32,179 nucleotides of DNA from Candidatus Binatota bacterium (lineage in GTDB: Bacteria; Desulfobacterota; Binatia; UBA1149; CAITLU01). The DNA lies in the NCBI GenBank assembly GCA_024276575.1, contig JAJRWY010000049.1, positions 1 to 32,179 on the forward strand. The letters run 5' to 3'. The translations under genes and the position numbers were made by a program. The notes beneath the pieces were generated by a model. The model made no database searches. It was not told where the DNA came from and was given only the letters and a program-made list of their open reading frames with translations. Shown piece by piece: positions 1,060-27,131 of the stretch (its first letter is position 1; each line of letters opens with the position of its first letter).

Positions 1060-3375
1060 CTAGGCGTCGATCGCGGGACGCCTCTGAACGAACTTGGGCT
1101 TGACCACTGCGATAACTACCGGCAGCAGTGTCAGAGAAGCCGACCAAGAGATAGTCATCCACAGGGCCAGCAGCAGTCCCATCTCTGCGTTGAAACGGAT
1201 CTCCGACATTAACCAGAACAGAGTCGAGAAGATCAGCGTCGCCGAGACAAAAGTCACGGCCTTACCAGCCGTACAAATCGCACGATGAACCGCCGCTTCG
1301 ACACGTTTACCGGTCTCGGACTCGTCATACTCGCCCTCAAGTTCAAAGAAGACTTCGATGGTTCGCGAGACGATATAGAGACCGTAGTCGATACCGAAAC
1401 CGACCCCCACGGTGACGACCGGCAGGGTATTGATGTTGATACCCATGTTCTGCCAGCCCATGTAGGCGTTGATCGTAAAGTTCGACGCCAGCAAAGGCAG
1501 CAGCATTATCATGCCCGCCACGAAGGAGCGGTAAGTAAACATCAAGACCACGTAGATGGTTCCGAAGCCAAGTAAGTTCAACATCACGTCGTTTTTCAAC
1601 AACTCTTCGTTGGCCGCTGCCAGCACGCCGATCAAACCGCCCGCCAGACGGAAGGTCGCCTTGTCCATCGGATTTTCCGCGATGAACTGCTTGCAACGCG
1701 TGATGATGCGCTTGACGTTGTCGCCCTTGTGATCGCGGCAGAAGAAAGTTACGTGCGCCGTTCGATAGTCGGTCGACACGTACTTGGCGGTCTCTGTCGG
1801 CGGCGAGCCTGAGAAGAAAATGAAGAACAGGCCGCCCACGTCCACCCAGTTATTGGGTATGACACCCCACTTCGGTTCCAATTCGTGGAAGACGCTGTTT
1901 ACCGCCCTCAGGATATCGGCAAGCGAAAAGCTGTATCCCACTCCCGAGTCACGCTCCAGGAAGCGCTGAAAACTCTCCATGGTGTCGAGCGTCTGCGGAT
2001 ACTTCATCGCGTTTTTATCGTAGCCTTCCGCGACCACGATAAGCGGCTCGACACCGCCGAACTTCCCTTGAATCTTGGTGTGGGAGGCGTTGTAGGGCGA
2101 ATCGATGAACAGCAAGGGCGAAGCCGCACTCGGATCGCCAATAATCAGCTTCGTCCACTGAGTTGCACAGACGACTGAAACCCCGAGCCAGAATACGATG
2201 GTTATGGTCCGGCCGCGTGGACTCAGTACCATATCGGCAAAGGCGTTGATTGCCCGAAGGAAAGGGCCATCGTGACGCTTCTCGATAACCTCATCCTCGG
2301 GAGGATTGAGGAAGTCGTAGACTATCGGGTTGAGCAGCAACTCCGAGATGGTGATAGCGAGGATCCAAAAAGACGAGGTCACCGCGAGTTTCTGCAACAT
2401 CACGATCGGAACCAGCATAATCACCAACAGCCCCAAGGCGTCAGTGATGATTCCGGACAAAGTAGGCACAAACATTTCCGCGAATGAGGCCACGATGGCA
2501 TCGTGCTTGCGCTTATCACCGCTGGCCTTGTGCTTGTGGTACTCCTCGTAATAGCGGTCGTGCATCTGCACCGAATGGCTCACCGCCCGAGCGGTAATGA
2601 AAAACGGGATGACCAGCACCAGCGGATCAAGCGCGAAACCGATGATATCGATGAAACCCAGACCCCAGATGGCCGAGATCACGCCGGTGATGGTGGGACG
2701 CAACGCGCCACGCCAATCGTGGAAGTAGAAGTAGAGCAGCACCCAGACGAACAGGGTGACCGCTATGAAGATCTGGAAAATCTCCGCAGAGTGCTTATAG
2801 ACCCATCCATAAAGCCGCGGCTCACCGGCAGCCCAGATGTTGATGTCCGAGCCGGTTCCCGTGATCGTGGCAGTCCCGGCTTCTTTATGACGCACGTAGT
2901 CTACCGTGACGGACTCGGCTTTGTCTCGCGCCTGCGCCACTGCCGCGCTGATCTCCCAAGAGCGAGATACGTCCTTGCCATTGACACGAATTATGACGTC
3001 GCCACGCTTCAGTCCGCCGGCTTCAGCCGCACTGCCTTCGAAAAGGCGCTTTACCAGCACCCCCTTTCCTTTCTCGACGCCCATGGCCTCGGCCCGGTCG
3101 GGGTCGACATCCTCGAGGTGCGCTCCGATCCAACCATCAGTGAACGGCACGATTACCCGCTCGTTCATCTCGTTGAAGATACGGCGGTAATCCAAACGCC
3201 CTTCAATGAAGTTGGCGCGGATCAAAGCCGCACGATCGTCGAGTGACACTAGAATACCGTAGACGTTCTCTGACTCATGGACGATGCGCCGGATATCGGT
3301 TGCATCGTCCGCAGTACGCGGCATTCCGATCATTATGGGTTCGGAGCGTAAAGTGCCGGCCGCGGCCACGGCCAA
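1060..3375 (-). CDS. RND/MMPL-family transporter with inserted PDZ domain (main fragment after an in-frame TAG)
   Basis: This is the larger part of an inner-membrane RND-superfamily exporter (HAE3/MMPL type). A PDZ-like domain spans about residues 73-172 of this fragment, with GVLVKRLFEGSAAEAGGLKR and GDVIIRVNGKD as its core. It is followed by membrane segments and the two RND half-motifs: ARAVSHSVQMHDRYYEE in the first half and VGVGFGIDYGLYIVSR in the second. The frame is continuous with the upstream fragment starting at 3741, and only one TAG codon (3447-3445) separates them. Read through, the protein would be 893 codons, normal for the family, and the residues on both sides (LSQIYLVT, then AADRVYGVNHNQ) continue the same domain. 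The start given is the first possible start codon (TTG) after the stop and need not be real. The gene follows the BNR lipoprotein gene, and such pairs are common. It is either a recent pseudogene or a sequencing error; a functional shortened protein is unlikely because the first membrane helix is lost. Confidence 0.85.
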   Translation of the reverse strand: MAVAAAGTLRSEPIMIGMPRTADDATDIRRIVHESENVYGILVSLDDRAALIRANFIEGRLDYRRIFNEMNERVIVPFTDGWIGAHLEDVDPDRAEAMGVEKGKGVLVKRLFEGSAAEAGGLKRGDVIIRVNGKDVSRSWEISAAVAQARDKAESVTVDYVRHKEAGTATITGTGSDINIWAAGEPRLYGWVYKHSAEIFQIFIAVTLFVWVLLYFYFHDWRGALRPTITGVISAIWGLGFIDIIGFALDPLVLVIPFFITARAVSHSVQMHDRYYEEYHKHKASGDKRKHDAIVASFAEMFVPTLSGIITDALGLLVIMLVPIVMLQKLAVTSSFWILAITISELLLNPIVYDFLNPPEDEVIEKRHDGPFLRAINAFADMVLSPRGRTITIVFWLGVSVVCATQWTKLIIGDPSAASPLLFIDSPYNASHTKIQGKFGGVEPLIVVAEGYDKNAMKYPQTLDTMESFQRFLERDSGVGYSFSLADILRAVNSVFHELEPKWGVIPNNWVDVGGLFFIFFSGSPPTETAKYVSTDYRTAHVTFFCRDHKGDNVKRIITRCKQFIAENPMDKATFRLAGGLIGVLAAANEELLKNDVMLNLLGFGTIYVVLMFTYRSFVAGMIMLLPLLASNFTINAYMGWQNMGININTLPVVTVGVGFGIDYGLYIVSRTIEVFFELEGEYDESETGKRVEAAVHRAICTAGKAVTFVSATLIFSTLFWLMSEIRFNAEMGLLLALWMTISWSASLTLLPVVIAVVKPKFVQRRPAIDA

Positions 3376-3444
3376 ATGCCGTGTGGTGCGGTGGCCGATA
3401 GAATCGATCTGGTTGTGGTTTACGCCGTAGACGCGGTCCGCGGC

Positions 3445-3741
3445 CTAGGTGACTAGATAGATCTGGCTGAGCGTCTCAACGTCGAAGATATTTCCTTCTT
3501 CGACTTCTACCATCATGGTGATGTTGTTGGCACCACCGAAATCCTTGGCGTATTCCTCGTGAACCTCGATAAACGGATGTCCCTTGGGCAGCAGCTCGCT
3601 AAAGCTGGTGATCATCTCCAGGTGCGAGGCCCTCCACCCGAAGAAAGCGGTGACAACCACTACCAATATAGTTACCGGAGTCCGGGCCCGGATCAGCCGC
3701 TCGCCGAGTAGGTAAAGTGCTTCCTTATTTTCCCTAGCCAT
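3445..3741 (-). pseudogene. N-terminal fragment of the RND/MMPL transporter, ended by a premature TAG
   Basis: The fragment has 98 codons. It carries the expected first transmembrane helix (RTPVTILVVVVTAFFGW, about residues 19-35) and the start of the first periplasmic loop, including FSELLPKGHPF, a pattern usual in MMPL/RND proteins. The ATG at 3741 is supported by a GGAG ribosome binding site and lies 12 bp after the lipoprotein gene's stop, so the two would be co-transcribed. The stop falls in the middle of the loop domain and the same frame continues for almost 800 codons. The sequence around the TAG needs only one base change to encode Gln, Lys or Glu. Confidence 0.8.
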
Positions 3742-3753
3742 GTTCTCCGCTCC

Positions 3754-4872
3754 CTAGCCTATCCGCCTGAACCAGGTCTTGCCGCCATCGTTGGTGTTCA
3801 TGATGAAGCCGAAACCACCAACCACCCAGCCGTTGTCGTTGTCGTAGAATTCGACTTCCCTGATCCAGTTGTTGACCTGAGTGCCGAGACTTCCCTGTTT
3901 GAAGTTCCTCCCGTCCGGCGCGATCACGACCTGTCCGCCGGCACCGACCGTCCACACCGACCCATTGGGAAGTATATCGCTGGAATAAAACGGCGAGGTG
4001 TATTCGTGAACATTGTGGTGGCGCCAAGCCCAGGTTTCGCCACCGTCAGTGGTCATGGCGATGCGTGCCTCGAGCCCGCATACGTAGCCCACCTCCCGGT
4101 TCAAGAACTCAACGTCGAAAAAAGTCGGTAGGTCGAGCACGTCGAAGTATTCTTTGCCGACCAAAGATGCCTGTTTCTCTACCCAGGTCTTGCCGCCGTC
4201 ACGGGTTCGAAAGATTTTCCCAAACTCTCCGACCACAAAACCGTTGTCGCCGTCGAAAAACTGAATGTCGTAGAGTACCGGGTCTTCAAAAGCCAGCAGG
4301 GAGTTGAGGTCCATCTGATCAAGACCTTCCGGCTTCATGGTATAGACGTTCCAGGTCTTGCCACCATCGTCGGTACGCGCGACCGTAGAGCGATCGCCGA
4401 TCGCAATCGCCGTTTTCGCATCGACTACGCTAAGAGAGAAAAGCGGCGCCAGGTTGCAATTGTCACCTTCCCCCTTTGACTCACGGCAGTCATCGCCCAT
4501 GTAGGCGCCTGCATCCTGTGCCTGCCAGGTCTCGCCGCCGTCCTTGGTATGCAAAACAGTCCCGGCCTGTCCAACGATCCAACCGATCTTGTCGTCGGCA
4601 AACCCGATACTAAACAGCGGCTGCTTGGTACCGCTGTCGACCGCCGTCCAGGTCACGCCTGCATCGGTGGTGTTCAGTATCTTCCCTTTGTACCCGACCA
4701 CGATGGCATGCTTGGGTCCAAGCAGTGCGATATCGTAGAACCGATCTGAAACATAGATCTTCTGTTCGGCCAAAGGCTCGAGTTCGCCCGAATCATGACA
4801 GGCGCCCAGTGTAAGCACGACCAAACACAGTGCTAAGGCGCGGCACAGACCACGAAGGCCAGTGAGATTCAT
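3754..4872 (-). CDS. YCF48/BNR-repeat beta-propeller lipoprotein
   Basis: The predicted exported protein has 372 residues. It begins with a lipoprotein signal peptide ending in the lipobox LTLGAC, so it is probably anchored to a membrane on the periplasmic side. The rest consists of BNR/YCF48-type propeller repeats: the motif DGG(K/E)TW recurs at least five times, interspersed with GxVVGxxG-type strands. The ATG at 4872 is favoured because AAGGAG lies at good distance and the signal peptide begins there; the frame is open further upstream but encodes nothing recognisable. In cyanobacteria and plastids YCF48 helps photosystem II assembly. In heterotrophs the family is widespread and usually neighbours RND/MMPL exporters, as it does here with 12 bp between the genes. 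I infer an accessory role in that exporter, not photosynthesis. Confidence 0.85.
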   Translation of the reverse strand: MNLTGLRGLCRALALCLVVLTLGACHDSGELEPLAEQKIYVSDRFYDIALLGPKHAIVVGYKGKILNTTDAGVTWTAVDSGTKQPLFSIGFADDKIGWIVGQAGTVLHTKDGGETWQAQDAGAYMGDDCRESKGEGDNCNLAPLFSLSVVDAKTAIAIGDRSTVARTDDGGKTWNVYTMKPEGLDQMDLNSLLAFEDPVLYDIQFFDGDNGFVVGEFGKIFRTRDGGKTWVEKQASLVGKEYFDVLDLPTFFDVEFLNREVGYVCGLEARIAMTTDGGETWAWRHHNVHEYTSPFYSSDILPNGSVWTVGAGGQVVIAPDGRNFKQGSLGTQVNNWIREVEFYDNDNGWVVGGFGFIMNTNDGGKTWFRRIG

Positions 4873-4980
4873 ACTTTTCTCCTTAAACTCGCTGAAGACT
4901 GGCGAGACGCTTCTACCCAAACGCTGACTATCTCGAACGACCCGAACCCATGATCTATCTTGGGGAAATGGGCAACACCA

Positions 4981-5007
4981 TTTATCGGCGCGCATAGGGC
5001 ATGTCAA
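4981..5007 (-). promoter_or_regulatory. Candidate promoter for the lipoprotein-RND operon
   Basis: On the minus strand a perfect TTGACA (5007-5002) is followed 15-17 bp later by an AT-rich GATAAATG that could act as a poor -10. It lies about 110 bp upstream of the lipoprotein start, in the largest gap on this side. The -10 match is weak, so this is only a candidate. Confidence 0.3.
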
Positions 5008-5069
5008 GATGGCGCGGGCTCGCCCCGCCATTCCCTTGCCCGGCAAAAGTCTCCGATTTTTCGCCGCTT

Positions 5070-5531
5070 TCAGCCCTCGGGGAAGAACTCAGCCCGATCG
5101 GCACCTTCGACGAGAGTCTGCTGGTCGATCCTCCACGCCCCATCCTCGTCTATTAGCTCATAAAGCTCGTACTCGTCCAGGCCAAGTTGGTTCAAAAACT
5201 TGTCCTGAGATTTTAGCAGATTCGGTACCCGCGCCTTGCCGTCGGCCCCAATTCGGGCTTCCCCAACGTCGAAACCGAAGATTTTCACTTCCCCCATTTC
5301 GACTATGTACTGCTGCTCTTTGGCCCATTCGCCGCGGGCCTTGCCCGCCCTGAGCGTAGTGGAAACGTAATCGTAAGCCTCGTCGAAGCGATGGGCCTGA
5401 ATGGCGGCAAGGTATGCTTTGACGGTTTCGGCGGGTCCCAACCTTTCGGCTCGCACCGAAGGCGGCAAAAAAACCGCTACGGCAAGAGAAAACGCCATCG
5501 CAAATGTGCCGAGTCGCAGAACTTGTTTCAT
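5070..5531 (-). CDS. Small exported protein, possibly NTF2-like fold
   Basis: The protein has 153 residues and an evident signal peptide (basic MKQVLR, hydrophobic stretch, probable cleavage after VRA around residue 28). The mature part begins GPAETVKAYLAAIQAHRFDE, resembling the first helix of NTF2-like/SnoaL or DUF4878-type domains, and later has an alternating strand pattern ending in DGAWRIDQQTLVEG, also typical of that fold. I cannot name a function. The gene starts 38 bp after the glycosyltransferase stop on the same strand, with no clear Shine-Dalgarno sequence, so it may be expressed with that gene. The fold assignment is an inference from pattern alone. Confidence 0.7.
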   Translation of the reverse strand: MKQVLRLGTFAMAFSLAVAVFLPPSVRAERLGPAETVKAYLAAIQAHRFDEAYDYVSTTLRAGKARGEWAKEQQYIVEMGEVKIFGFDVGEARIGADGKARVPNLLKSQDKFLNQLGLDEYELYELIDEDGAWRIDQQTLVEGADRAEFFPEG

Positions 5532-7327: not shown

Positions 7328-7696
7328 ATGACCAATGAAACAGACCAAGTCGAGATGCTCGATCACGCTGCCCGGCTGCAACAAGTAGTTGACGCCTTCG
7401 TGGCCCACGGCGCCCCGGGAGCGAGCGGCACGACCACATACTTGTTCGCATTGAGCGGACAAGAAAGCGGCAACTACCTGCTCACGCTGTCTCCCGAAGG
7501 TGCAAAGTGGGAGGCCGGCTACGAAGGCGACGCAGACGTCAGTATACGCCTCAGCACCGACGACTTTCTAGCCATCGCCGACGGGAAACTCGACGGAAGA
7601 CTGGCGATCGCGGGAGAACGGATCGAGATCAGCGGAGACCTCGCCGCCGCCGCCGCCATGATTTCTCAACTTTCGCCCCCCGAAGATCTCGACTAG
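7328..7696 (+). CDS. SCP2 sterol-carrier-domain protein
   Basis: The cytoplasmic protein has 122 residues and is essentially one SCP2-type lipid-binding domain. Visible family features are the central strands YLLTLSPEGAKWEAGYEGDA, the ADVSIRLSTDDFLAIADGKL segment and the closing AGERIEISGDL followed by an Ala-rich helix. SCP2 domains bind hydrophobic ligands such as sterols, fatty acids or acyl-CoAs; the ligand here is unknown. The gene is divergent from the glycosyltransferase with only 21 bp between the chosen start codons, so their promoters must overlap the coding regions or one start is misassigned. It is convergent with the receiver gene downstream. Confidence 0.8.
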   Translation: MTNETDQVEMLDHAARLQQVVDAFVAHGAPGASGTTTYLFALSGQESGNYLLTLSPEGAKWEAGYEGDADVSIRLSTDDFLAIADGKLDGRLAIAGERIEISGDLAAAAAMISQLSPPEDLD

Positions 7697-7823: not shown

Positions 7824-8237
7824 TCAAGGGCGTTGCAGACTCCACACGTCACCGGCAAACACGTCACGGATGATTCCCAGCATGACTTCGTCGTCGAACG
7901 GTTTCGATAGATAGCGGTCCGCACCCACACGTAGCGCCTCGATCTCGTCGGCCTTTTGGCCCTTGGCCGTCAAGATCACGACAAAGACCCCCCGCAGGGC
8001 CGGGTCCGACTTTATGGCACTGCAGACCGCGTACCCGTCCATACGCGGCATCATGACGTCGAGCATCACGACCTTAGGACGCAAGCGCTGGACGGCCGCA
8101 AGTCCGTCCTCGCCGTCGACTGCGGTCTCGACCTCGATCCCCTCTGCGTCGAGGATAAAGGCTACCGTCTCCCGAATATTCGGCTCGTCGTCGACCAGGA
8201 CCACGCAATCACGCAGCTCTCCGCTTGGCGACGTCAC
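7824..8237 (-). CDS. Stand-alone response regulator receiver domain protein
   Basis: This 137-residue single-domain receiver has all key residues: the acidic pair D16-D17 in VLVDDEP, phospho-acceptor D60 in VVMLDVMMPRMDG, T90 in VVILTAKG and K112 in YLSKPF. There is no output domain, so it probably works by protein-protein contact or in a phosphorelay, as in CheY and Spo0F. The GTG start overlaps the TGA of the upstream exported-protein gene by four bases (GTGA), implying translational coupling. No histidine kinase gene is present in the window; a partner must be encoded elsewhere. It is the last gene of the apparent korA-led unit. Confidence 0.92.
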   Translation of the reverse strand: MTSPSGELRDCVVLVDDEPNIRETVAFILDAEGIEVETAVDGEDGLAAVQRLRPKVVMLDVMMPRMDGYAVCSAIKSDPALRGVFVVILTAKGQKADEIEALRVGADRYLSKPFDDEVMLGIIRDVFAGDVWSLQRP

Positions 8238-9043
8238 TGCTCGCCTAGGCCTCCTGATGGACCGCTGCCGACTGCACCTACAGCGGCACTGCCACTGCTC
8301 CCAACGACGCCGGAACCCGCATCCGCCGCGGCACTGCCGCTTGCTGCATCCCCGGCGCCGGGTGCTTGCCGGGAAGACGAGTGGCGCAAACTGGCCAACG
8401 AACCGTAGAGATGATCGAAGTAGATTTGGGTCGGAACGTCAGCTTCCTGCGAACTCAGATGCAACACCAAGTATTCGCTTTTATCCGCCGCCAGATTAAC
8501 CCAAAACACCTCCGTCAGCTGCTTTTCCTGGTCTTGTCCACTAGACGCCAGCGTATTCTTGCTGATGATGCTGAAAGCGTAGATATCCGCTTCGCCAGGG
8601 ACTCTACGAACCGGTGAATACCCGATCAACCGATCGCGCCGCTTCTCCAATTGCTGGCGCAGGCTCACCTGAGCCAGTGACTCAGCGTCGCTAACCAAGC
8701 CAGGATCGGAAACCGGAAATGCCCGGATGGTCACATAGCAGCGGGTGTTGATCGAATCCGGCGGGACTTGTTCCGCATAGACCAACTCGAGACTTTCCGG
8801 GCCCAGACCCACTTGCCGCCATCCGTCCAACAGCGGCGCTTCATAATAAAACCCACCCAGTTGGTAGCTAGCCGCCAGCGGCAGCAACATCAGCGGCGAC
8901 TGGGTCGTCGCCCGCGATACCGTCCACGTGCCCAGGACCAGCATGCATAGCAATGCCATCCCGGCGGCGCGCCGTAACGGCCACCCCCTGGAGTTGCAAG
9001 GACGAACAGATGCCTCACAGCACCCTTGATGAGCAGTATTCAT
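8234..9043 (-). CDS. Exported protein of unknown function with Gly/Ala/Ser-rich tail
   Basis: This is a 269-residue protein I do not recognise. The N-terminus has a basic stretch and a hydrophobic helix (MALLCMLVLGTWTVS, about residues 28-42), consistent with a signal peptide or membrane anchor. The central part (about 60-220) looks like a folded mixed domain, beginning with GGFYYEAPLLDGWRQVGLG. The last 45 residues are low-complexity Gly/Ala/Ser. The ATG at 9043 is preceded by AAGGTG at good spacing; a GTG nine codons upstream is less likely. It starts 38 bp after the coiled-coil pseudo-receiver gene and overlaps the receiver gene by four bases, so its role is probably linked to that signalling pair, perhaps as an envelope component. 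Confidence 0.75.
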   Translation of the reverse strand: MNTAHQGCCEASVRPCNSRGWPLRRAAGMALLCMLVLGTWTVSRATTQSPLMLLPLAASYQLGGFYYEAPLLDGWRQVGLGPESLELVYAEQVPPDSINTRCYVTIRAFPVSDPGLVSDAESLAQVSLRQQLEKRRDRLIGYSPVRRVPGEADIYAFSIISKNTLASSGQDQEKQLTEVFWVNLAADKSEYLVLHLSSQEADVPTQIYFDHLYGSLASLRHSSSRQAPGAGDAASGSAAADAGSGVVGSSGSAAVGAVGSGPSGGLGEQ

Positions 9044-9081
9044 ACGCGAATCACCTTCCGGATTGGCCACGTGGGCCGGTA

Positions 9082-10059
9082 TTACTCAATAATTCGTTTG
9101 CGGTATTCAGTCATGCGTAGCAAAGCCGACAGCAGCGCGAGCGTGTCGCTCTCGGCGGGCAGATACTCGCGTGCGCCCCACTTATCCACTAAAGCCCGCA
9201 TGTCCGATTCGCTCAAACCGCCAGGGCGCTGTCCGTAGATGAGGCAAGGCGTATCAAGACCTCGAACCGCATCATCAGCGGGCCTCATCGCCTCGCATAG
9301 CCGGGCGATTTCCCCGGGCGGCAGGGATGCTTGCAAAAGCGCGGCATCCACATGTCGCCGCTCGAGACGGCGAAGTGCGCTAGCAGCATCGCATGCGGCG
9401 AGCACATGGAAACCGGTACGAGACAAGTCGAGACTCAAAGCACCGCGAGGCCGCGGACGTGCATCGACTACCATGACCACCGAGCGGCTATGCTCAGTCG
9501 TACCACGTGATTGTTCCAGCACTCTAATGCGAGCGGAAAGCTCGTCTATACGTTCCTGCAAACCGTTGGAATCGGCAGCTTCTGCAGAGTTGGCCATCTC
9601 CTGCGGCGGGGCAAAAGAGCCCACCTCGATGAGTAAGGACTCCAAACGCTCGAGCCTCTCGCTACAAGCGCCAAGCTCGGCGTCGAAACCGGCATCCGCG
9701 TCCGGGTCTCCGAGTTGCTGCTCTATCGTTTCCAAGCGTTCGGTTTGAGCTTCGAGAACATCGGTAAATTCAGCCAGGAGTTCGCCGGCGGCCTCTACCT
9801 TGCGGCCCAACGCCCCTATTTCCACATCCAGGCCTGAATCCCCGGCATCCCCGGGTCGCTCTGCACGCTCATGGGCGCCCGCAGGACCGGCATCCGTAGA
9901 TTGCGAAGCGCCCTGCCCGCATCCACCCTCTTCATCCTGTATCCTACCGATGAGCCTTTCGACTTCGACACGCAAGGTTTCCAAGCTATCGGCCACTTTG
10001 AGCTTGTCTACAGCGGCCGCTAGAACGCTCCCGCTATCGTCGCTTTGCCCCTCGCTCAT
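9082..10059 (-). CDS. Coiled-coil protein with C-terminal degenerate receiver domain
   Basis: The 325-residue cytoplasmic protein has an N-terminal half rich in Glu/Leu heptads (for example LEAQTERLETIEQQLGD and ERIDELSARIRVLEQS), broken by a Gly/Ala/Asp-rich stretch, and predicted to form coiled coil. From about residue 190 it resembles a receiver domain: the first strand VVMVVDARPRPRG, a helix, FHVLAACDAASALRRLERR, then DAALLQASLPPGE. The site that should hold the phospho-acceptor Asp carries Gln, and the first acidic pair is reduced to one Asp. It is therefore probably a pseudo-receiver that cannot be phosphorylated in the usual way. The gene lies 32 bp after the CBS gene and 38 bp before the exported-protein gene. 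A scaffold or partner for the intact receiver is possible, but that is inference. Confidence 0.75.
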   Translation of the reverse strand: MSEGQSDDSGSVLAAAVDKLKVADSLETLRVEVERLIGRIQDEEGGCGQGASQSTDAGPAGAHERAERPGDAGDSGLDVEIGALGRKVEAAGELLAEFTDVLEAQTERLETIEQQLGDPDADAGFDAELGACSERLERLESLLIEVGSFAPPQEMANSAEAADSNGLQERIDELSARIRVLEQSRGTTEHSRSVVMVVDARPRPRGALSLDLSRTGFHVLAACDAASALRRLERRHVDAALLQASLPPGEIARLCEAMRPADDAVRGLDTPCLIYGQRPGGLSESDMRALVDKWGAREYLPAESDTLALLSALLRMTEYRKRIIE

Positions 10060-10091
10060 CGCTACTTAGCCGCAAGCGCCTCGCTGCAAAC

Positions 10092-10640
10092 CTATGCTCC
10101 TTCTCTTTCGCGCGTGTAATTTCCGCGTGGAAGAGTCGGCAGGTTCAAAATGCTTTGAGGGAAAAATCGAACCAGGTAGTTCACTATGTCACGCATCGAC
10201 ACCGCACCTATCGGAGCCGCCGAGTTATCGATCAGCGGAATATGACGATAGCCGCCAATGCTCATCAAGTTCAAGGCGTAAGCAATCGAGTCGCTCTCGC
10301 GAAGGCTCTCGGGATTGGCGGTCATCACCTGGCGCACCGGCACTTTCACCGCATCCTGGCCTTTCGCGATGATACGCAACAGCACATCTCTTTCCGTGAA
10401 AATGCCTTTGAGCTTGCCCGTACCGGCAACCAGTACGCAACCGACCTTGGCGTCTTCCATCCTCTTGACCGCTTCGAGCACCGAGGTGTGAGGCTCCACC
10501 ACCACCGGAGCGCTCAATTCCAACAAAGACAGTGGGTTGCGCAGCATGTTCTCGTCGAACACTCGCGACTGTTCTCCCGCCTCGAGTATGGTGATAGACT
10601 CCTCTACGTACTCACCGACTTCTTCTCTTTCGTTTGCCAT
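10092..10640 (-). CDS. CBS-domain-pair protein
   Basis: The protein has 182 residues. After about 45 N-terminal residues it consists of two CBS motifs: the first with VVVEPHTSVLEAVKRMEDAK and LKGIFTERDVLLRI (ending near 90), the second with VMTANPESLRESDSIAYALN, RHIPLID and SMRDIVNYL (about 105-157). CBS pairs bind adenine nucleotides (AMP, ATP, sometimes SAM or NADH) and commonly act as energy-state sensors. The ATG lies seven bases after the korB stop, with GGAG from the korB end as a likely ribosome binding site, so it is almost certainly co-expressed with korAB. A role in reporting energy or redox state to the oxidoreductase or the downstream receiver proteins is plausible but not shown. 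Confidence 0.9.
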   Translation of the reverse strand: MANEREEVGEYVEESITILEAGEQSRVFDENMLRNPLSLLELSAPVVVEPHTSVLEAVKRMEDAKVGCVLVAGTGKLKGIFTERDVLLRIIAKGQDAVKVPVRQVMTANPESLRESDSIAYALNLMSIGGYRHIPLIDNSAAPIGAVSMRDIVNYLVRFFPQSILNLPTLPRGNYTREREGA

Positions 10641-10646
10641 CCGCGT

Positions 10647-11669
10647 TTACTCCACTTGCCAAGTATCGCCACTTCTATAAAGAGCGTCGAAATCGCCAGG
10701 CCCCTTACTTTCCCGGGCCTCGTGAATCTGCCGGTGGACTCCCTCTTCATACACAGGGTAGCCCTCCCCCTCGACCGCACGCAAGACGCCCATCGGAACC
10801 GGAAACTGCGATCCTTCCATATGGCTCATAAGGTGGGCCATGAAGGGGTTGGTCTCATCGTGAACAGCAATCTCGGAGGGCTTCACATCTTTTACGGCCA
10901 CCACTTCGGGCGTGGCGTCCGCGCGCAAACGGATTCCCCACTCCGAATCGCGGCCGAAGAGCATGGGCTTGCCTTGTTCGAGCAGCAACTGCCGCTCAGC
11001 CTTCGTGCCCCTGTCGCTCACGTCGGCGAACGCCCCGTCGTTGAAAACTACGCAGTTTTGCAGAATCTCGACGAACGAGGTGCCCTTGTGGGCCGCCGCC
11101 CGATGGAGCATCGACTGCAGGTGTTGGGTCTCTACATCCACCGTCCTGGCGATGAAAGTGGCGCCGGCACCCAAAGCAAGCGCAGCCGGCGAGAACGGAG
11201 AATCCAGGCTGCCCATCGGACTGGTCTTGGTTTTATGGCCCCTTTTCGAGGTCGGCGAGTACTGTCCTTTGGTCAGGCCGTATATCTCGTTGTTGAACAA
11301 AAGGATGTTGACGTCGAGGTTTCTCCGCAAGATATGCACGAAGTGATTGCCTCCGATGCTCAGCGCATCGCCGTCGCCGGTTATGATCCACACCGAAAGC
11401 TCCGGCCGCGCCACCTTGATACCGCTGGCCAGCGCCGGGGCACGCCCGTGAATACTGTGGAAACCGTAGGTGTTCATGTAGTAGGGGAACCGGCTCGAAC
11501 AACCGATCCCGGATACGAACACGGCGTTTTCTCGTGCGATACCGAGTTCGGCCATGACCTTCTGTACTTGTGCAAGAATCGCATAATCTCCGCAGCCCGG
11601 ACACCAGCGAACATCCTGGTCACTAACGAAATCTTTACGGCTGAGTGCCGAAGAAGCCGCAATACTCAT
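10647..11669 (-). CDS. korB: 2-oxoacid:ferredoxin oxidoreductase, beta subunit
   Basis: This is the thiamine-pyrophosphate-binding beta subunit (340 residues) of a 2-oxoacid:ferredoxin oxidoreductase, which interconverts a 2-oxoacid (probably 2-oxoglutarate) plus CoA with the acyl-CoA, CO2 and reduced ferredoxin. Visible features are WCPGCGD with C23 and C26, C57 in SGIGCSSRFP and C206 in EILQNCVVF as probable [4Fe-4S] ligands. The TPP/Mg motif GDGDALSIGGNH begins at 98, followed by NNEIYGLTKGQYSPT. The ATG overlaps the korA TGA by four bases. The length and the absence of separate gamma and delta genes fit the two-subunit KorAB type. The substrate is assigned by family resemblance and could be another 2-oxoacid. 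Confidence 0.93.
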   Translation of the reverse strand: MSIAASSALSRKDFVSDQDVRWCPGCGDYAILAQVQKVMAELGIARENAVFVSGIGCSSRFPYYMNTYGFHSIHGRAPALASGIKVARPELSVWIITGDGDALSIGGNHFVHILRRNLDVNILLFNNEIYGLTKGQYSPTSKRGHKTKTSPMGSLDSPFSPAALALGAGATFIARTVDVETQHLQSMLHRAAAHKGTSFVEILQNCVVFNDGAFADVSDRGTKAERQLLLEQGKPMLFGRDSEWGIRLRADATPEVVAVKDVKPSEIAVHDETNPFMAHLMSHMEGSQFPVPMGVLRAVEGEGYPVYEEGVHRQIHEARESKGPGDFDALYRSGDTWQVE

Positions 11670-13528
11670 TTGTTTTCCTCGACTATACCGCGCAGGCGGT
11701 CACAGAGTTCGGAGACTCCGAAAGGTTGCCCTTGAATCTTGGTCAGCGGTATCGCATCCACCAGATACTGGTCGCGCACTACGCGAACCAACTGACCCAT
11801 GTTCATTTCCGGTACTATGACCTTATCGAATCGACGCAGAATCTCGCCCAAATCGCGCGGCAGCGGATTGAGCCAGCGTGGATGGACATGGGCAAAACTG
11901 TATCCTTGGGAATTGAGCGCGCGCACGGCTTCCGAGATGGCACCGTAGGTGGACCCCCAACCAACCACCAACACCTCCGCCGACTGTAAACCCTCGATCT
12001 CGCAAGGCGCAAAATCTGCGGAGATGCCTTCGATCTTACTCGCGCGCACATGAACCATACGTTCGTGATTCAAGGGATCATAGCTGATATCGCCGCTGTT
12101 GTAGTCCTTCTCGATGCCACCGACGCGATGGGTAAGGTTGGGAGTTCCGGGGCTCACCCAGGGACGCGCCAGCGTATCCTCATCGCGCAGGTAGGGCTGG
12201 AACGCCACTTGCTGCTTCCAAGGCTTGGCTTCGATGTCGGGCAGTTCCGAGAACTTCGGCAGCTTCCAGGGCTGCGCCCCGTTGGCAAGATAGCCGTCAC
12301 TGAGCAATATCACCGGCGTCATATATTTGGTCGCGACTCTCACCGCCTCTATGGCGGCATCGAAACAGTCAGCAGGCGTGCGCGGCGCGATGATTGCTAC
12401 CGGGGATTCTCCGTTGCGCCCGTACAAGGCTTGCAACAGATCAGCCTGCTCGGTCTTGGTCGGCAAGCCGGTGCTCGGCCCACCGCGTTGAACGTTGACC
12501 ACCACCAATGGCAGTTCCACCATCACCGCCAACCCGATGGTCTCGGCCTTGAGCGCGACCCCCGGCCCACTAGAAGTGGTAACCCCAATGGCACCGGCGA
12601 AAGAGGCTCCCAGGGCACTGCCGACGCCGGCGATCTCATCCTCTGCCTGCACGGTGATCACCCCGAACTCTTTCATCGCCGCGAGATCCTGGAGTATCTC
12701 AGTCGCCGGCGTAATCGGGTATGAGCCCAGGAACAGTTGCCGCCCGGCTTTGGCAGCACCGGTGGCCAAGCCCCAAGCCAAAGCCTTGTTGCCGGTGATA
12801 CTGCTATAGAGTCCGGGCTCGATCTTGGCTTTCTCGACCGTGTAGCAATTGGCAAAAGCGTCGGTGGTCTCTCCGTAGTTCCAGCCGGCTTTGAACACCC
12901 GCGTGTTGGCTTCCACCAACTGCGGCGACTTCGCGAACTTCGAAGCAATCCACGCCAGGGTTTGCTCGGTAGGACGGCTGAACATCCAAGAGCATAGCCC
13001 CAGGGCAAAGAAATTCTTGCACCTGACCACGCTCTTCTTGGGAAGGTCCATATCGGCCAACGCCCGAGCCGTCATCTTAGTCATCGCTAGGTCGAAAACC
13101 GTATAGCCATCCAACTCGCCCGACTCCGAAGGATGCTGCGCGTAGCCAGCCTTGCGAAGGTTGCCCTTGGTGAACGCGTCGGCGTCCATGATGAGGGTAC
13201 CGCCCTCGCGCAAGTGTGGAAGGTTTACCTTCAGTGCCGCCGGATTCATCACCACCAGAACATCGGGCCGCTCTCCCGGCGTCAGTAGCGAGGTACTGGA
13301 AAAGTTGAGTTGAAACCCGCTGACCCCTGCGAGGGTCCCGGCAGGGGCCCTTATCTCGGCAGGATAATCGGGAAGCGTAGCGATGTCGTTACCGGCCAGA
13401 GCCGACTCGTTGGAGAACTGCGTGCCGGTCAACTGCATCCCATCGCCGGAGTCGCCGGCAAAGCGGATGACGACTTTCTCCAAGACCTCGACGGGTTTGT
13501 TGCTGGCAAGAGGGAAAGCCTCACCCAT
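11666..13528 (-). CDS. korA: 2-oxoacid:ferredoxin oxidoreductase, fused gamma-alpha subunit
   Basis: The large subunit (620 residues) of a two-subunit 2-oxoacid:ferredoxin oxidoreductase acts with the beta subunit encoded next. The first ~190 residues are the gamma domain (RFAGDSGDGMQLTGTQFSNE, then GVSGFQLNFSS), and the alpha domain follows from about 240 with the YPITPATEIL motif at 270-279 and QRGGPSTGLPTKTEQADLLQ. This gamma-alpha fusion is the KorA arrangement found in many aerobes and facultative bacteria as well as anaerobes. The ATG is preceded by AGGAGG, but at 11 bases, longer than ideal. It is the first gene of a compact minus-strand unit; the 140-bp gap to the acyltransferase gene upstream should hold its promoter, though I could not pick a convincing -35/-10 pair. 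Confidence 0.93.
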   Translation of the reverse strand: MGEAFPLASNKPVEVLEKVVIRFAGDSGDGMQLTGTQFSNESALAGNDIATLPDYPAEIRAPAGTLAGVSGFQLNFSSTSLLTPGERPDVLVVMNPAALKVNLPHLREGGTLIMDADAFTKGNLRKAGYAQHPSESGELDGYTVFDLAMTKMTARALADMDLPKKSVVRCKNFFALGLCSWMFSRPTEQTLAWIASKFAKSPQLVEANTRVFKAGWNYGETTDAFANCYTVEKAKIEPGLYSSITGNKALAWGLATGAAKAGRQLFLGSYPITPATEILQDLAAMKEFGVITVQAEDEIAGVGSALGASFAGAIGVTTSSGPGVALKAETIGLAVMVELPLVVVNVQRGGPSTGLPTKTEQADLLQALYGRNGESPVAIIAPRTPADCFDAAIEAVRVATKYMTPVILLSDGYLANGAQPWKLPKFSELPDIEAKPWKQQVAFQPYLRDEDTLARPWVSPGTPNLTHRVGGIEKDYNSGDISYDPLNHERMVHVRASKIEGISADFAPCEIEGLQSAEVLVVGWGSTYGAISEAVRALNSQGYSFAHVHPRWLNPLPRDLGEILRRFDKVIVPEMNMGQLVRVVRDQYLVDAIPLTKIQGQPFGVSELCDRLRGIVEENK

Positions 13529-13669: not shown

Positions 13670-14647
13670 TTATTTGTCTTCCCTGCGTTTGGCGCTTTCC
13701 CCGCCAACGGCTGCGGCGCTCTCGTCGCGCGGGCGGGTCTTCCAGCGCCGGTGCGCCCAGTTCCACTGCTCCGGATGCCGGCGAACGGCGGCCTCTATTT
13801 CGGCCGTGTACTTGGCAGTAAGCGCCGCGATTCTCTCCTCGCGCGTCAACGCCACCGTCGCGCCGCCTGCGCTACCCTCGACGCAAGCGTATGGCTCGAT
13901 CAATTCACCGCATTCCGGAACCGTCTGTCCGTTACGCCACACGGCGAACACCGGCAACACCGGAGCTTTCGAAGCCAGGGAAAGCCGGGCCAGCAGCGTC
14001 GACGTAGAGGCTTCACGCCCGAAAGTTTCCACGAAAATCCCCGCTCCAGCCCTTTGGTTCTGGTCCAGGAGAACGGCCAGAACCCCACCCGCGTTCAGTT
14101 CGCGCAATGCCTCACGTAACACCATACCGCGGCCGATGCTGTTTACGTGCATTGCCCGGCGGCGGGAAAGCAGAAACTCGTCTATATAGGGATTCTCCAA
14201 GGTCCGGTGAAATACGCTGACGCTGCCGCCTGTATTGCCCCACAACCTAGCCATCACCTCGTAATTACCGAGATGTGCCGTGAGGACGAGCAAGCCCTTG
14301 CCGCCGGCAAGATGCCCCTGCACGAGTGCCGACAGCTCTTTCCAAGGCCGGCTGTCGGCACGCTGCGCTACTTCTTCAACATGCAGCAACTCGGCAACCA
14401 AACGGCCCCAGTTGCGAAAGGTCGTGCGCATGACCGCGTCGCGGCGTTCCGCTCCCCACTCGGGAAAGGCCAGTGCGAGATTGTCGGCCACGATTTGCCG
14501 GTGGCGGGCGTCGAAACGCATCACCAGTTCTGCAGCGCCCTCTAGAAAGGCTCGCGTACGATCCAGCGAGGCTAGGCTCAGCAGCGCCCATAGCGCGCGG
14601 AAAGCCAGATAAACCGAATAGTCGAACAGCTTGCGCACCCGCCACAC
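13670..14647 (-). CDS. LpxL/HtrB-family lipid A biosynthesis acyltransferase
   Basis: The 325-residue protein belongs to the LpxL/HtrB/MsbB lysophospholipid-acyltransferase family, which adds secondary acyl chains to lipid A at the cytoplasmic face of the inner membrane. The N-terminus has a membrane-anchoring hydrophobic segment (VYLAFRALWALLSLASL). The catalytic HX4E motif is visible as H125-E130 in LTAHLGNYE. The family's ending WNWAHRRWKTRP is present, followed by a short charged tail. The length is normal. It starts divergently from the acyl-CoA mutase gene (91 bp between starts). Its presence supports a Gram-negative envelope with lipid A. Confidence 0.9.
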   Translation of the reverse strand: MWRVRKLFDYSVYLAFRALWALLSLASLDRTRAFLEGAAELVMRFDARHRQIVADNLALAFPEWGAERRDAVMRTTFRNWGRLVAELLHVEEVAQRADSRPWKELSALVQGHLAGGKGLLVLTAHLGNYEVMARLWGNTGGSVSVFHRTLENPYIDEFLLSRRRAMHVNSIGRGMVLREALRELNAGGVLAVLLDQNQRAGAGIFVETFGREASTSTLLARLSLASKAPVLPVFAVWRNGQTVPECGELIEPYACVEGSAGGATVALTREERIAALTAKYTAEIEAAVRRHPEQWNWAHRRWKTRPRDESAAAVGGESAKRREDK

Positions 14648-26321: not shown

Positions 26322-27131
26322 TCAGCCGTCTTGAACGTCCTTCGGAGAGTAGCCCCAGTCGCGCAAAATCTCTTGCTCTTCACCCGGGTTCAAGGCTTTT
26401 TTGAACCGTGCGCGCGAACGCCCACGGACGGCGCTTTCGCACTCATTCCAACTACGATGCCGCCTCACCACACCATCAACCACACTCAAGTAAGAATAGG
26501 CACGTGCGCGTGAGCGGCGCTTGGCGGTAGCCTTGTCCGCATTCATTGCGGCCTGCTGGCCCTGCTCAGCGCGCGTGCTGCGCCGGCTCGTACACCGAGC
26601 CGGCTCGGTCGATGGCTCCCAGTCGATCTCTACAGCGTAGGAACACTCCGGGCCGCAATACATGTCCACATCCTCGCCTTGGGCCAACGCCGACGCCAAG
26701 CTATCGGCACGTTCGTTGCCCGCTACCCCTGCGTGCCCCCGTACCTGCCGCCACACCACCGGCGCGCCATCCGCCCGCGCTTGCAGCAGTTCGTCGAGCG
26801 TTCTCCACAGGTCTTGGTTGGCGACGTCCCCCCCGTTGCTGCTACGCCACCCGCGCCGTTTCCAGGCTTCCAGCCAACGAGTTGCACCGTTGACTAGGTA
26901 GCTAGAATCCGTATGAATCACGACCGGCCCGGACTGCGGACCGAGCCGGTCGAGGGCCTTGATGGCGGCCTTCATTTCCATACGGTTGTTGGGGGTGTGG
27001 GCTTCGGCGCCTCCCAACTCTTCGATGCTGCCGTCAGGAAAACGTAGAATCGCAGCCCATCCCCCGGGGCCGGGATTTCCCTTGGCGGCACCGTCGGTAA
27101 AAACCACGGTATACGAGTTGCCTTGTTTCAT
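26322..27131 (-). CDS. rnhA: Ribonuclease HI with C-terminal viroplasmin/HBD-like domain
   Basis: The RNase HI domain occupies about residues 5-155. Catalytic residues are D13 (FTDGAAKGNPGPGG), E52 (NNRMEMKAA), D75 (IHTDSSYLVNG) and D143 (GNERADSLA), with H133 in VRGHAGVAGNE. It cleaves the RNA of RNA-DNA hybrids (primers, R-loops). A basic, low-complexity stretch follows. Residues of about 215-265 (YSYLSVVDGVVRRHRSWNEC, then RARFKKALNPGEEQEIL) resemble the hybrid-binding/viroplasmin domain that usually lies at the N-terminus of RNase H1, so the usual order is reversed. The total of 269 residues is longer than E. coli RNase HI (155). The ATG lies 11 bp after the MFS stop on the same strand. 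Confidence 0.92.
   Translation of the reverse strand: MKQGNSYTVVFTDGAAKGNPGPGGWAAILRFPDGSIEELGGAEAHTPNNRMEMKAAIKALDRLGPQSGPVVIHTDSSYLVNGATRWLEAWKRRGWRSSNGGDVANQDLWRTLDELLQARADGAPVVWRQVRGHAGVAGNERADSLASALAQGEDVDMYCGPECSYAVEIDWEPSTEPARCTSRRSTRAEQGQQAAMNADKATAKRRSRARAYSYLSVVDGVVRRHRSWNECESAVRGRSRARFKKALNPGEEQEILRDWGYSPKDVQDG

Follow-up and report, generated by a model that had tools for sequence, protein, structure and literature searches.

A six-gene block of a Candidatus Binatota genome probably joins a KorAB-type oxidoreductase and its CBS-pair partner to a separate, order-specific unit

In many uncultured phyla, KorAB-type enzymes serve as a low-potential way into and out of the tricarboxylic acid (TCA) cycle, and their regulation is, to our knowledge and short of a survey, little known. 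A stand-alone CBS-pair protein, DarB (CbpB), occurs in Bacillus subtilis. According to PMC8822347, DarB is a target of cyclic di-AMP (c-di-AMP) and, in its ligand-free state, binds and stimulates pyruvate carboxylase. KorAB of Mycobacterium tuberculosis (Rv2455c-Rv2454c) has fused gamma-alpha and beta subunits and is active aerobically, and the paper on it also gives the motifs GxxGxG and CXGCGXnGDGXnC (PMC2773412). Here we analyze a block of six genes on a 32,179-nt contig (JAJRWY010000049.1, hereafter the window, at its full length) from a Candidatus Binatota bacterium of the order UBA1149, class Binatia, whose assembly (4.36 Mb, 321 contigs) is 94% complete. The block encodes a KorAB-type enzyme, a CBS-pair protein, a pseudo-receiver (PSR), an exported protein (EXP) and a receiver (RR), and the original prediction had taken all of these for one module linking energy or redox status to a signalling output. 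We consider, with a probability of about 0.6, that they form two functional units lying end to end, KorAB with the CBS protein as its probable regulatory accessory, and an order-specific second unit; the six genes are probably not one system.

The six open reading frames, confirmed by an ORF check, all lie on the minus strand from 7824 to 13528: korA (11666..13528, 620 aa), korB (10647..11669, 340 aa), the CBS gene (10092..10640, 182 aa), PSR (9082..10059), EXP (8234..9070) and RR (7824..8237). The very small gaps described before were borne out, with overlaps of 4 bp at korA/korB and at EXP/RR and gaps of 6 bp between korB and CBS and 32 bp between CBS and PSR. The gap between PSR and EXP is 11 bp if EXP starts at the GTG at 9070, and the 38 bp of the original prediction corresponds to an ATG start at 9043 (EXP then being 8234-9043). 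A scan of the block gave no promoter-like match on the minus strand and two weak terminator-like matches, both within coding sequence, so that no promoter or terminator was found that would divide the block; overall, matches were fewer than in shuffled sequence (5 vs 7.6).

The neighbourhood of korB was compared at 40 of the 43 full-length korB places outside the window in 58 genomes. In all ten loci from the order, the lipid A acyltransferase-like gene lpxL (13670-14647 in the window, with a 141-base gap before korA) is joined to korA and korB, PSR, EXP and RR are present, and a convergent SCP2-domain gene comes next (7328-7696 on the plus strand of the window, downstream of RR); the CBS gene is present in nine of them. 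The gene arrangement exceeds chance, as its order is conserved in relatives. A shared position within the order is nevertheless weak evidence, because mcm (9/10, the tenth contig stopping short), lpxL (10/10) and SCP2 (10/10) are equally conserved in place without an evident role in a module. None of the 30 loci that come from the class's other families has PSR or EXP, and six have a CBS gene near korB on the opposite strand; EXP itself occurs in 13/13 genomes of the order and in 0/135 other genomes of the class. Outside the order, korAB is thus found with or without the CBS gene and without EXP, which is what the original prediction had named beforehand as making the link accidental. The converse was found as well. 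In one genome of the order that is 97% complete (G001), the site reads mcm-lpxL-PSR-EXP-ech-RR-SCP2, with korA, korB and CBS gone, and neither korB nor CBS was found elsewhere in that genome at the thresholds used. A blastn comparison of this deletion site with its genus mate G005 showed the end of lpxL and the stretch upstream of PSR to be conserved, and gave no strong match to the korA upstream region. A further genome (G002) offers a 4.8-kb contig with the end of korB followed by CBS-PSR-EXP-RR, in which EXP and RR are adjacent as in the window.

The receiver, originally counted as part of the module, is cut off from EXP by a gene on the opposite strand in 6/6 examined loci of the three families f2-f4, and in L035 and G001 an enoyl-CoA hydratase gene (named from its translation by eye) separates EXP from RR. 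Inserts are also present in L033 and L034. These insertions indicate that RR is a neighbour rather than a fixed partner. An operon shared with RR would fit the window and L032, where RR overlaps the preceding gene by 4 bp, and fails in families f2-f4. The interval between EXP and RR in L032 (oriented 8456-12768) holds acyl-CoA carboxyltransferase, DUF1446-type and enoyl-CoA hydratase genes, again named from translations by eye, and the opposite-strand insert of L036, L037, L038, L041, L043 and L044 encodes a conserved protein of 275-419 aa that looks patatin-like by eye. A single six-gene pathway, in which the CBS protein would sense the status of KorAB and pass it on through PSR, EXP and RR, would account for the tight gaps in the window and for the same gene order in korAB-bearing relatives from the order. 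However, each half of the block occurs alone, the receiver is split off, and unrelated neighbours are equally conserved in place, which makes this pathway very unlikely.

The tie between the CBS gene and korAB extends well beyond the order. Among the best 80 of the 290 CBS loci found, korA or korB lies within 1.5 kb of the CBS gene in 40, six in the order and 34 outside it. The latter come from Methylomirabilota, Planctomycetota, Poribacteria, Neomarinimicrobiota, Omnitrophota and records titled Deltaproteobacteria, so that the linkage is seen in Binatia and in no fewer than five further phyla; outside the order, no other gene of the window lies within 1.5 kb of CBS in the 80 best loci. The arrangement varies: the CBS gene may precede korA, follow korB or lie on the other strand. 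When 106 CBS proteins are placed on a tree (omitting L131_1, a short second copy of 26 aa), these positions label 37, 22 and 6 proteins, with 28 unlinked and 13 at a contig edge, and well-supported branches force at least two, three and two changes, respectively, the program having warned of long branches. Furthermore, KorB (E <= 1e-80) is encoded in 28/33 genomes whose CBS gene is unlinked or at a contig edge; 33 of the 41 such loci were used (left out were L074, L085, L100, L102, L104, L107, L110 and L111). If all neighbours of korAB, the CBS gene included, were syntenic hitch-hikers without a functional link, the collinear stretch from mcm to SCP2 across the order and the presence of KorAB without CBS in G005 would follow. 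Such hitch-hiking is quite unlikely given the linkage in other phyla with differing gene orders, the loss of both genes together within families, and the frequency of KorB where CBS is unlinked or at an edge.

Co-occurrence was surveyed in 148 genomes of the class (CBS at E <= 1e-25, KorB and SucA, the 2-oxoglutarate dehydrogenase E1, at E <= 1e-100), of which 70 carry CBS, 96 KorB and 58 SucA. KorB and CBS occur together in 66 genomes, KorB only in 30, CBS only in four and neither in 48 (p 1.3e-13, uncorrected for kinship), and stratification by the six families that vary in KorB leaves a Mantel-Haenszel p of 2.9e-4. The control pair KorB and SucA shows no association (40 both, 56 KorB only, 18 SucA only, 34 neither; p 0.48). 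Four genomes have CBS only: in G002 korB lies at the end of a contig, in G013 the CBS match is limited to residues 37-157, and the assemblies of G103 and G048 are split into about 1200 and 400 contigs. The CBS protein might instead regulate something else, such as a transcription factor or a ferredoxin, and occur together with KorAB through lifestyle, as its unlinked position in many Binatia and Planctomycetota would allow; direct adjacency to korAB, however, recurs in different orders, and the control gene SucA is unassociated with KorB, so we regard this explanation as unlikely. From the module originally proposed, cross-phylum linkage, co-occurrence and co-loss uphold the KorAB-CBS tie, and its extension to PSR, EXP and RR is not supported, given the absence of EXP outside the order and a genome that keeps the trio alone.

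By curated cut-offs and cofactor motifs, KorAB is assigned as a two-subunit 2-oxoacid:ferredoxin oxidoreductase. KorA, the fused gamma-alpha subunit, scores 656.3 bits against TIGR03710 (cut-off 482.75), carries the coenzyme A motif GxxGxG at residue 25 and matches PDB 6n2n_A (E 6.9e-84). KorB, the thiamine pyrophosphate and iron-sulphur subunit, scores 264.6 bits against TIGR02177 (cut-off 261.9), has CxGCG at residue 23, GDG...NN from residue 98 and four cysteines at 23, 26, 57 and 206, and matches PDB 5b46_B (E 1e-59) and 6n2n_B (E 1.9e-55). The substrate is most likely 2-oxoglutarate, which would place the enzyme at a step of the TCA cycle. SucA was not found in the source assembly; it is present in 6/13 genomes of the order, and every one of the 13 has SucA, KorB or both if the contig-edge korB piece of G002 is counted. 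KorAB as an obligate substitute for SucA would fit the order and was rejected for the class, where 40/148 genomes have both and 34/148 neither.

The CBS protein matches PF00571 alone (77.7 bits vs cut-off 24, in two stretches). Its two repeats carry GIFTERD and GAVSMRD, one in each, and both conform to GhxS/TxxD, which we take to be the adenosine-binding motif; in the alignment of 106 CBS proteins, position 79 is Gly in 105 and position 85 Asp in all 106. The motifs agree with the adenylate sensing first proposed for this protein, and its CBS cleft most likely binds an adenosine ligand. Within the order the protein is 55-62% identical. Beyond the CBS pair it has a conserved C-terminal tail (residues 159-182, 10095..10166), [NT][LV]PP... 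with mostly EGA or DGG at its end, that is common to CBS relatives across phyla. The tail core is found in at least one CBS copy at 83/88 loci examined, and is missing from the first copy of tandem Poribacteria pairs and from three untailed proteins in the alignment. No Pfam or NCBIfam entry naming such a tailed CBS family was found, and the protein is not a member of the DarB/CbpB model NF041630 (21 bits vs cut-off 125). Two tandem CBS genes stand before korA at most Poribacteria loci (L108, L114, L116, L131, L136, L141, L143-L148 and L151), with the tail only on the copy proximal to korA; the first copy of L131 is too short to judge. As a predictor of KorAB the tail was considered and rejected. 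Where CBS is unlinked or at an edge (33 genomes), KorB occurs in 27/29 genomes with a tailed and 1/4 with an untailed protein, and without the sole untailed locus with KorB, L118, which ends at a contig end, the counts are 27/29 vs 0/3 (p 0.002); this association represents a single event, because the untailed L130, L138 and L140 form one clade. The genomes of L083 and L092 have a tailed CBS protein and no KorB.

These features suggest a mechanism for the first unit, korA-korB-CBS, in which the CBS protein would be a detachable accessory of KorAB. An adenosine ligand would bind in the CBS cleft, its presence or absence would alter docking of the protein on KorAB, perhaps via the C-terminal tail, and the docked protein would raise or lower the flux through KorAB with the energy state of the cell. 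By analogy with DarB and pyruvate carboxylase, adenylate tuning of KorAB is the most likely role of the CBS protein. As a tentative extension, the tailed CBS-pair proteins of at least six phyla may form a hitherto undescribed family of regulators of 2-oxoglutarate:ferredoxin oxidoreductases, detachable and gated by adenylates, whose C-terminus docks on or enters KorAB; in that case the acidic end of the tail could possibly mimic the dicarboxylate substrate. Several observations weigh against the two-unit reading and the regulatory tie on which it builds. First, gaps are short throughout the window, and all six genes may still be co-transcribed. Second, 30 of the 96 KorB genomes have no CBS protein at the threshold used, 20 of these in one family, and G005 likewise has KorAB without it; the CBS protein is therefore dispensable. 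Third, the class shows no complementarity between SucA and KorB (both in 40/148, neither in 34/148). Finally, kinship among the genomes and the incompleteness of many of them mean that the p-values are overstated, and the 80 loci were ranked for similarity to a query that itself came from linked genes.

The second unit would comprise PSR and EXP with RR nearby, would probably act at the cell envelope and would not need KorAB. PSR and EXP overlap in 10/10 fetched loci of the order (with the start codons chosen), which points to a coupling of these two. PSR scores below the PF00072 cut-off (18 vs 30.2 bits), and its model (mean pLDDT 69.8) combines a helical N-terminal part with a receiver fold, the receiver part reaching 81-92 in most blocks and the best fold match giving Z 18.2 with 118 residues aligned at a root-mean-square deviation (rmsd) of 1.9. 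The phosphoacceptor column holds Asp in L036-L038, Glu in L041, L043 and L044 (family f3) and Gln in the window, the acceptor being lost in family f1, so that PSR reads as a receiver domain decayed along the order. RR, a single domain without an output domain that is conserved in the order, scores 99 bits against PF00072, with D16, D17, D60, T90 and K112 invariant in 11/11 aligned sequences.

EXP has a signal-like N-terminus, no Pfam or NCBIfam match, and a core (residues about 61-230, pLDDT above 90 in most blocks) with the PsbP/MOG1/DcrB fold. Its model (residues 64-233) matches CyanoP 2xb3 (Z 11.3, 144 aligned, rmsd 3.7), MOG1 5yfg (Z 11.2, 155 aligned, rmsd 4.6) and DcrB 6e8a (Z 10.4, 112 aligned, rmsd 2.6) at 9 to 15% identity, as fold matches only; START and Bet v 1 type matches ranked below this group and were judged common-fold matches. 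LpqN 6e5d also matches (Z 10.3, 143 aligned, rmsd 3.3), and LpqN is reported to interact with MmpL3 and MmpL11 (PMC7458404). EXP could thus be an LpqN-like periplasmic helper, controlled by PSR, of the MMPL exporter encoded at 1060-3375, relatives of which are found in 8/12 searched neighbour loci (the other four possibly fetched too short). This is a doubtful possibility, as PsbP, MOG1, DcrB and immunity proteins share the fold at tied Z and the MMPL gene lies several kb off with other genes between. The MMPL gene, with a PDZ domain, belongs to a conserved downstream run on the minus strand (1060-5531) together with a Ycf48-like BNR protein and a small ORF (5070-5531), the last two being present in 11/12 searched loci. 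Elsewhere in the window, a 269-aa protein (26322-27131, minus strand) has an RNase H domain confined to residues 7-149.

A full-text search, with most subscription papers outside its coverage, found no literature joining a CBS domain and KorAB, and the main text of a Binatota genome paper (PMC8262859) does not mention ferredoxin, oxoglutarate, ketoglutarate, the TCA cycle or a CBS domain. A small conserved partner recognizable by its tail would offer a handle on KorAB regulation and a marker for finding it in other genomes. The block also illustrates that genes packed tightly in one assembly can belong to units that evolution keeps apart. The window KorAB shares the fused gamma-alpha and beta subunits and the motifs of the M. 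tuberculosis enzyme; in contrast, the latter lies in a predicted operon with Rv2453c and Rv2452c, and 'CBS' is absent from the text of that paper (PMC2773412). The two-subunit oxidoreductases of PDB 6n2n and 5b46 are homologous to KorA and to KorB up to about residue 212, and these matches leave the last ~130 residues of KorB uncovered. Like DarB, the closest published mechanism we found, the window CBS protein is a small CBS-pair protein proposed to act on an enzyme of central metabolism; unlike DarB, whose ligand is c-di-AMP, it carries an additional C-terminal tail and accompanies KorAB. Set beside these systems, the block is best described as a known enzyme with a probable new regulatory partner, followed by a separate, order-specific unit.

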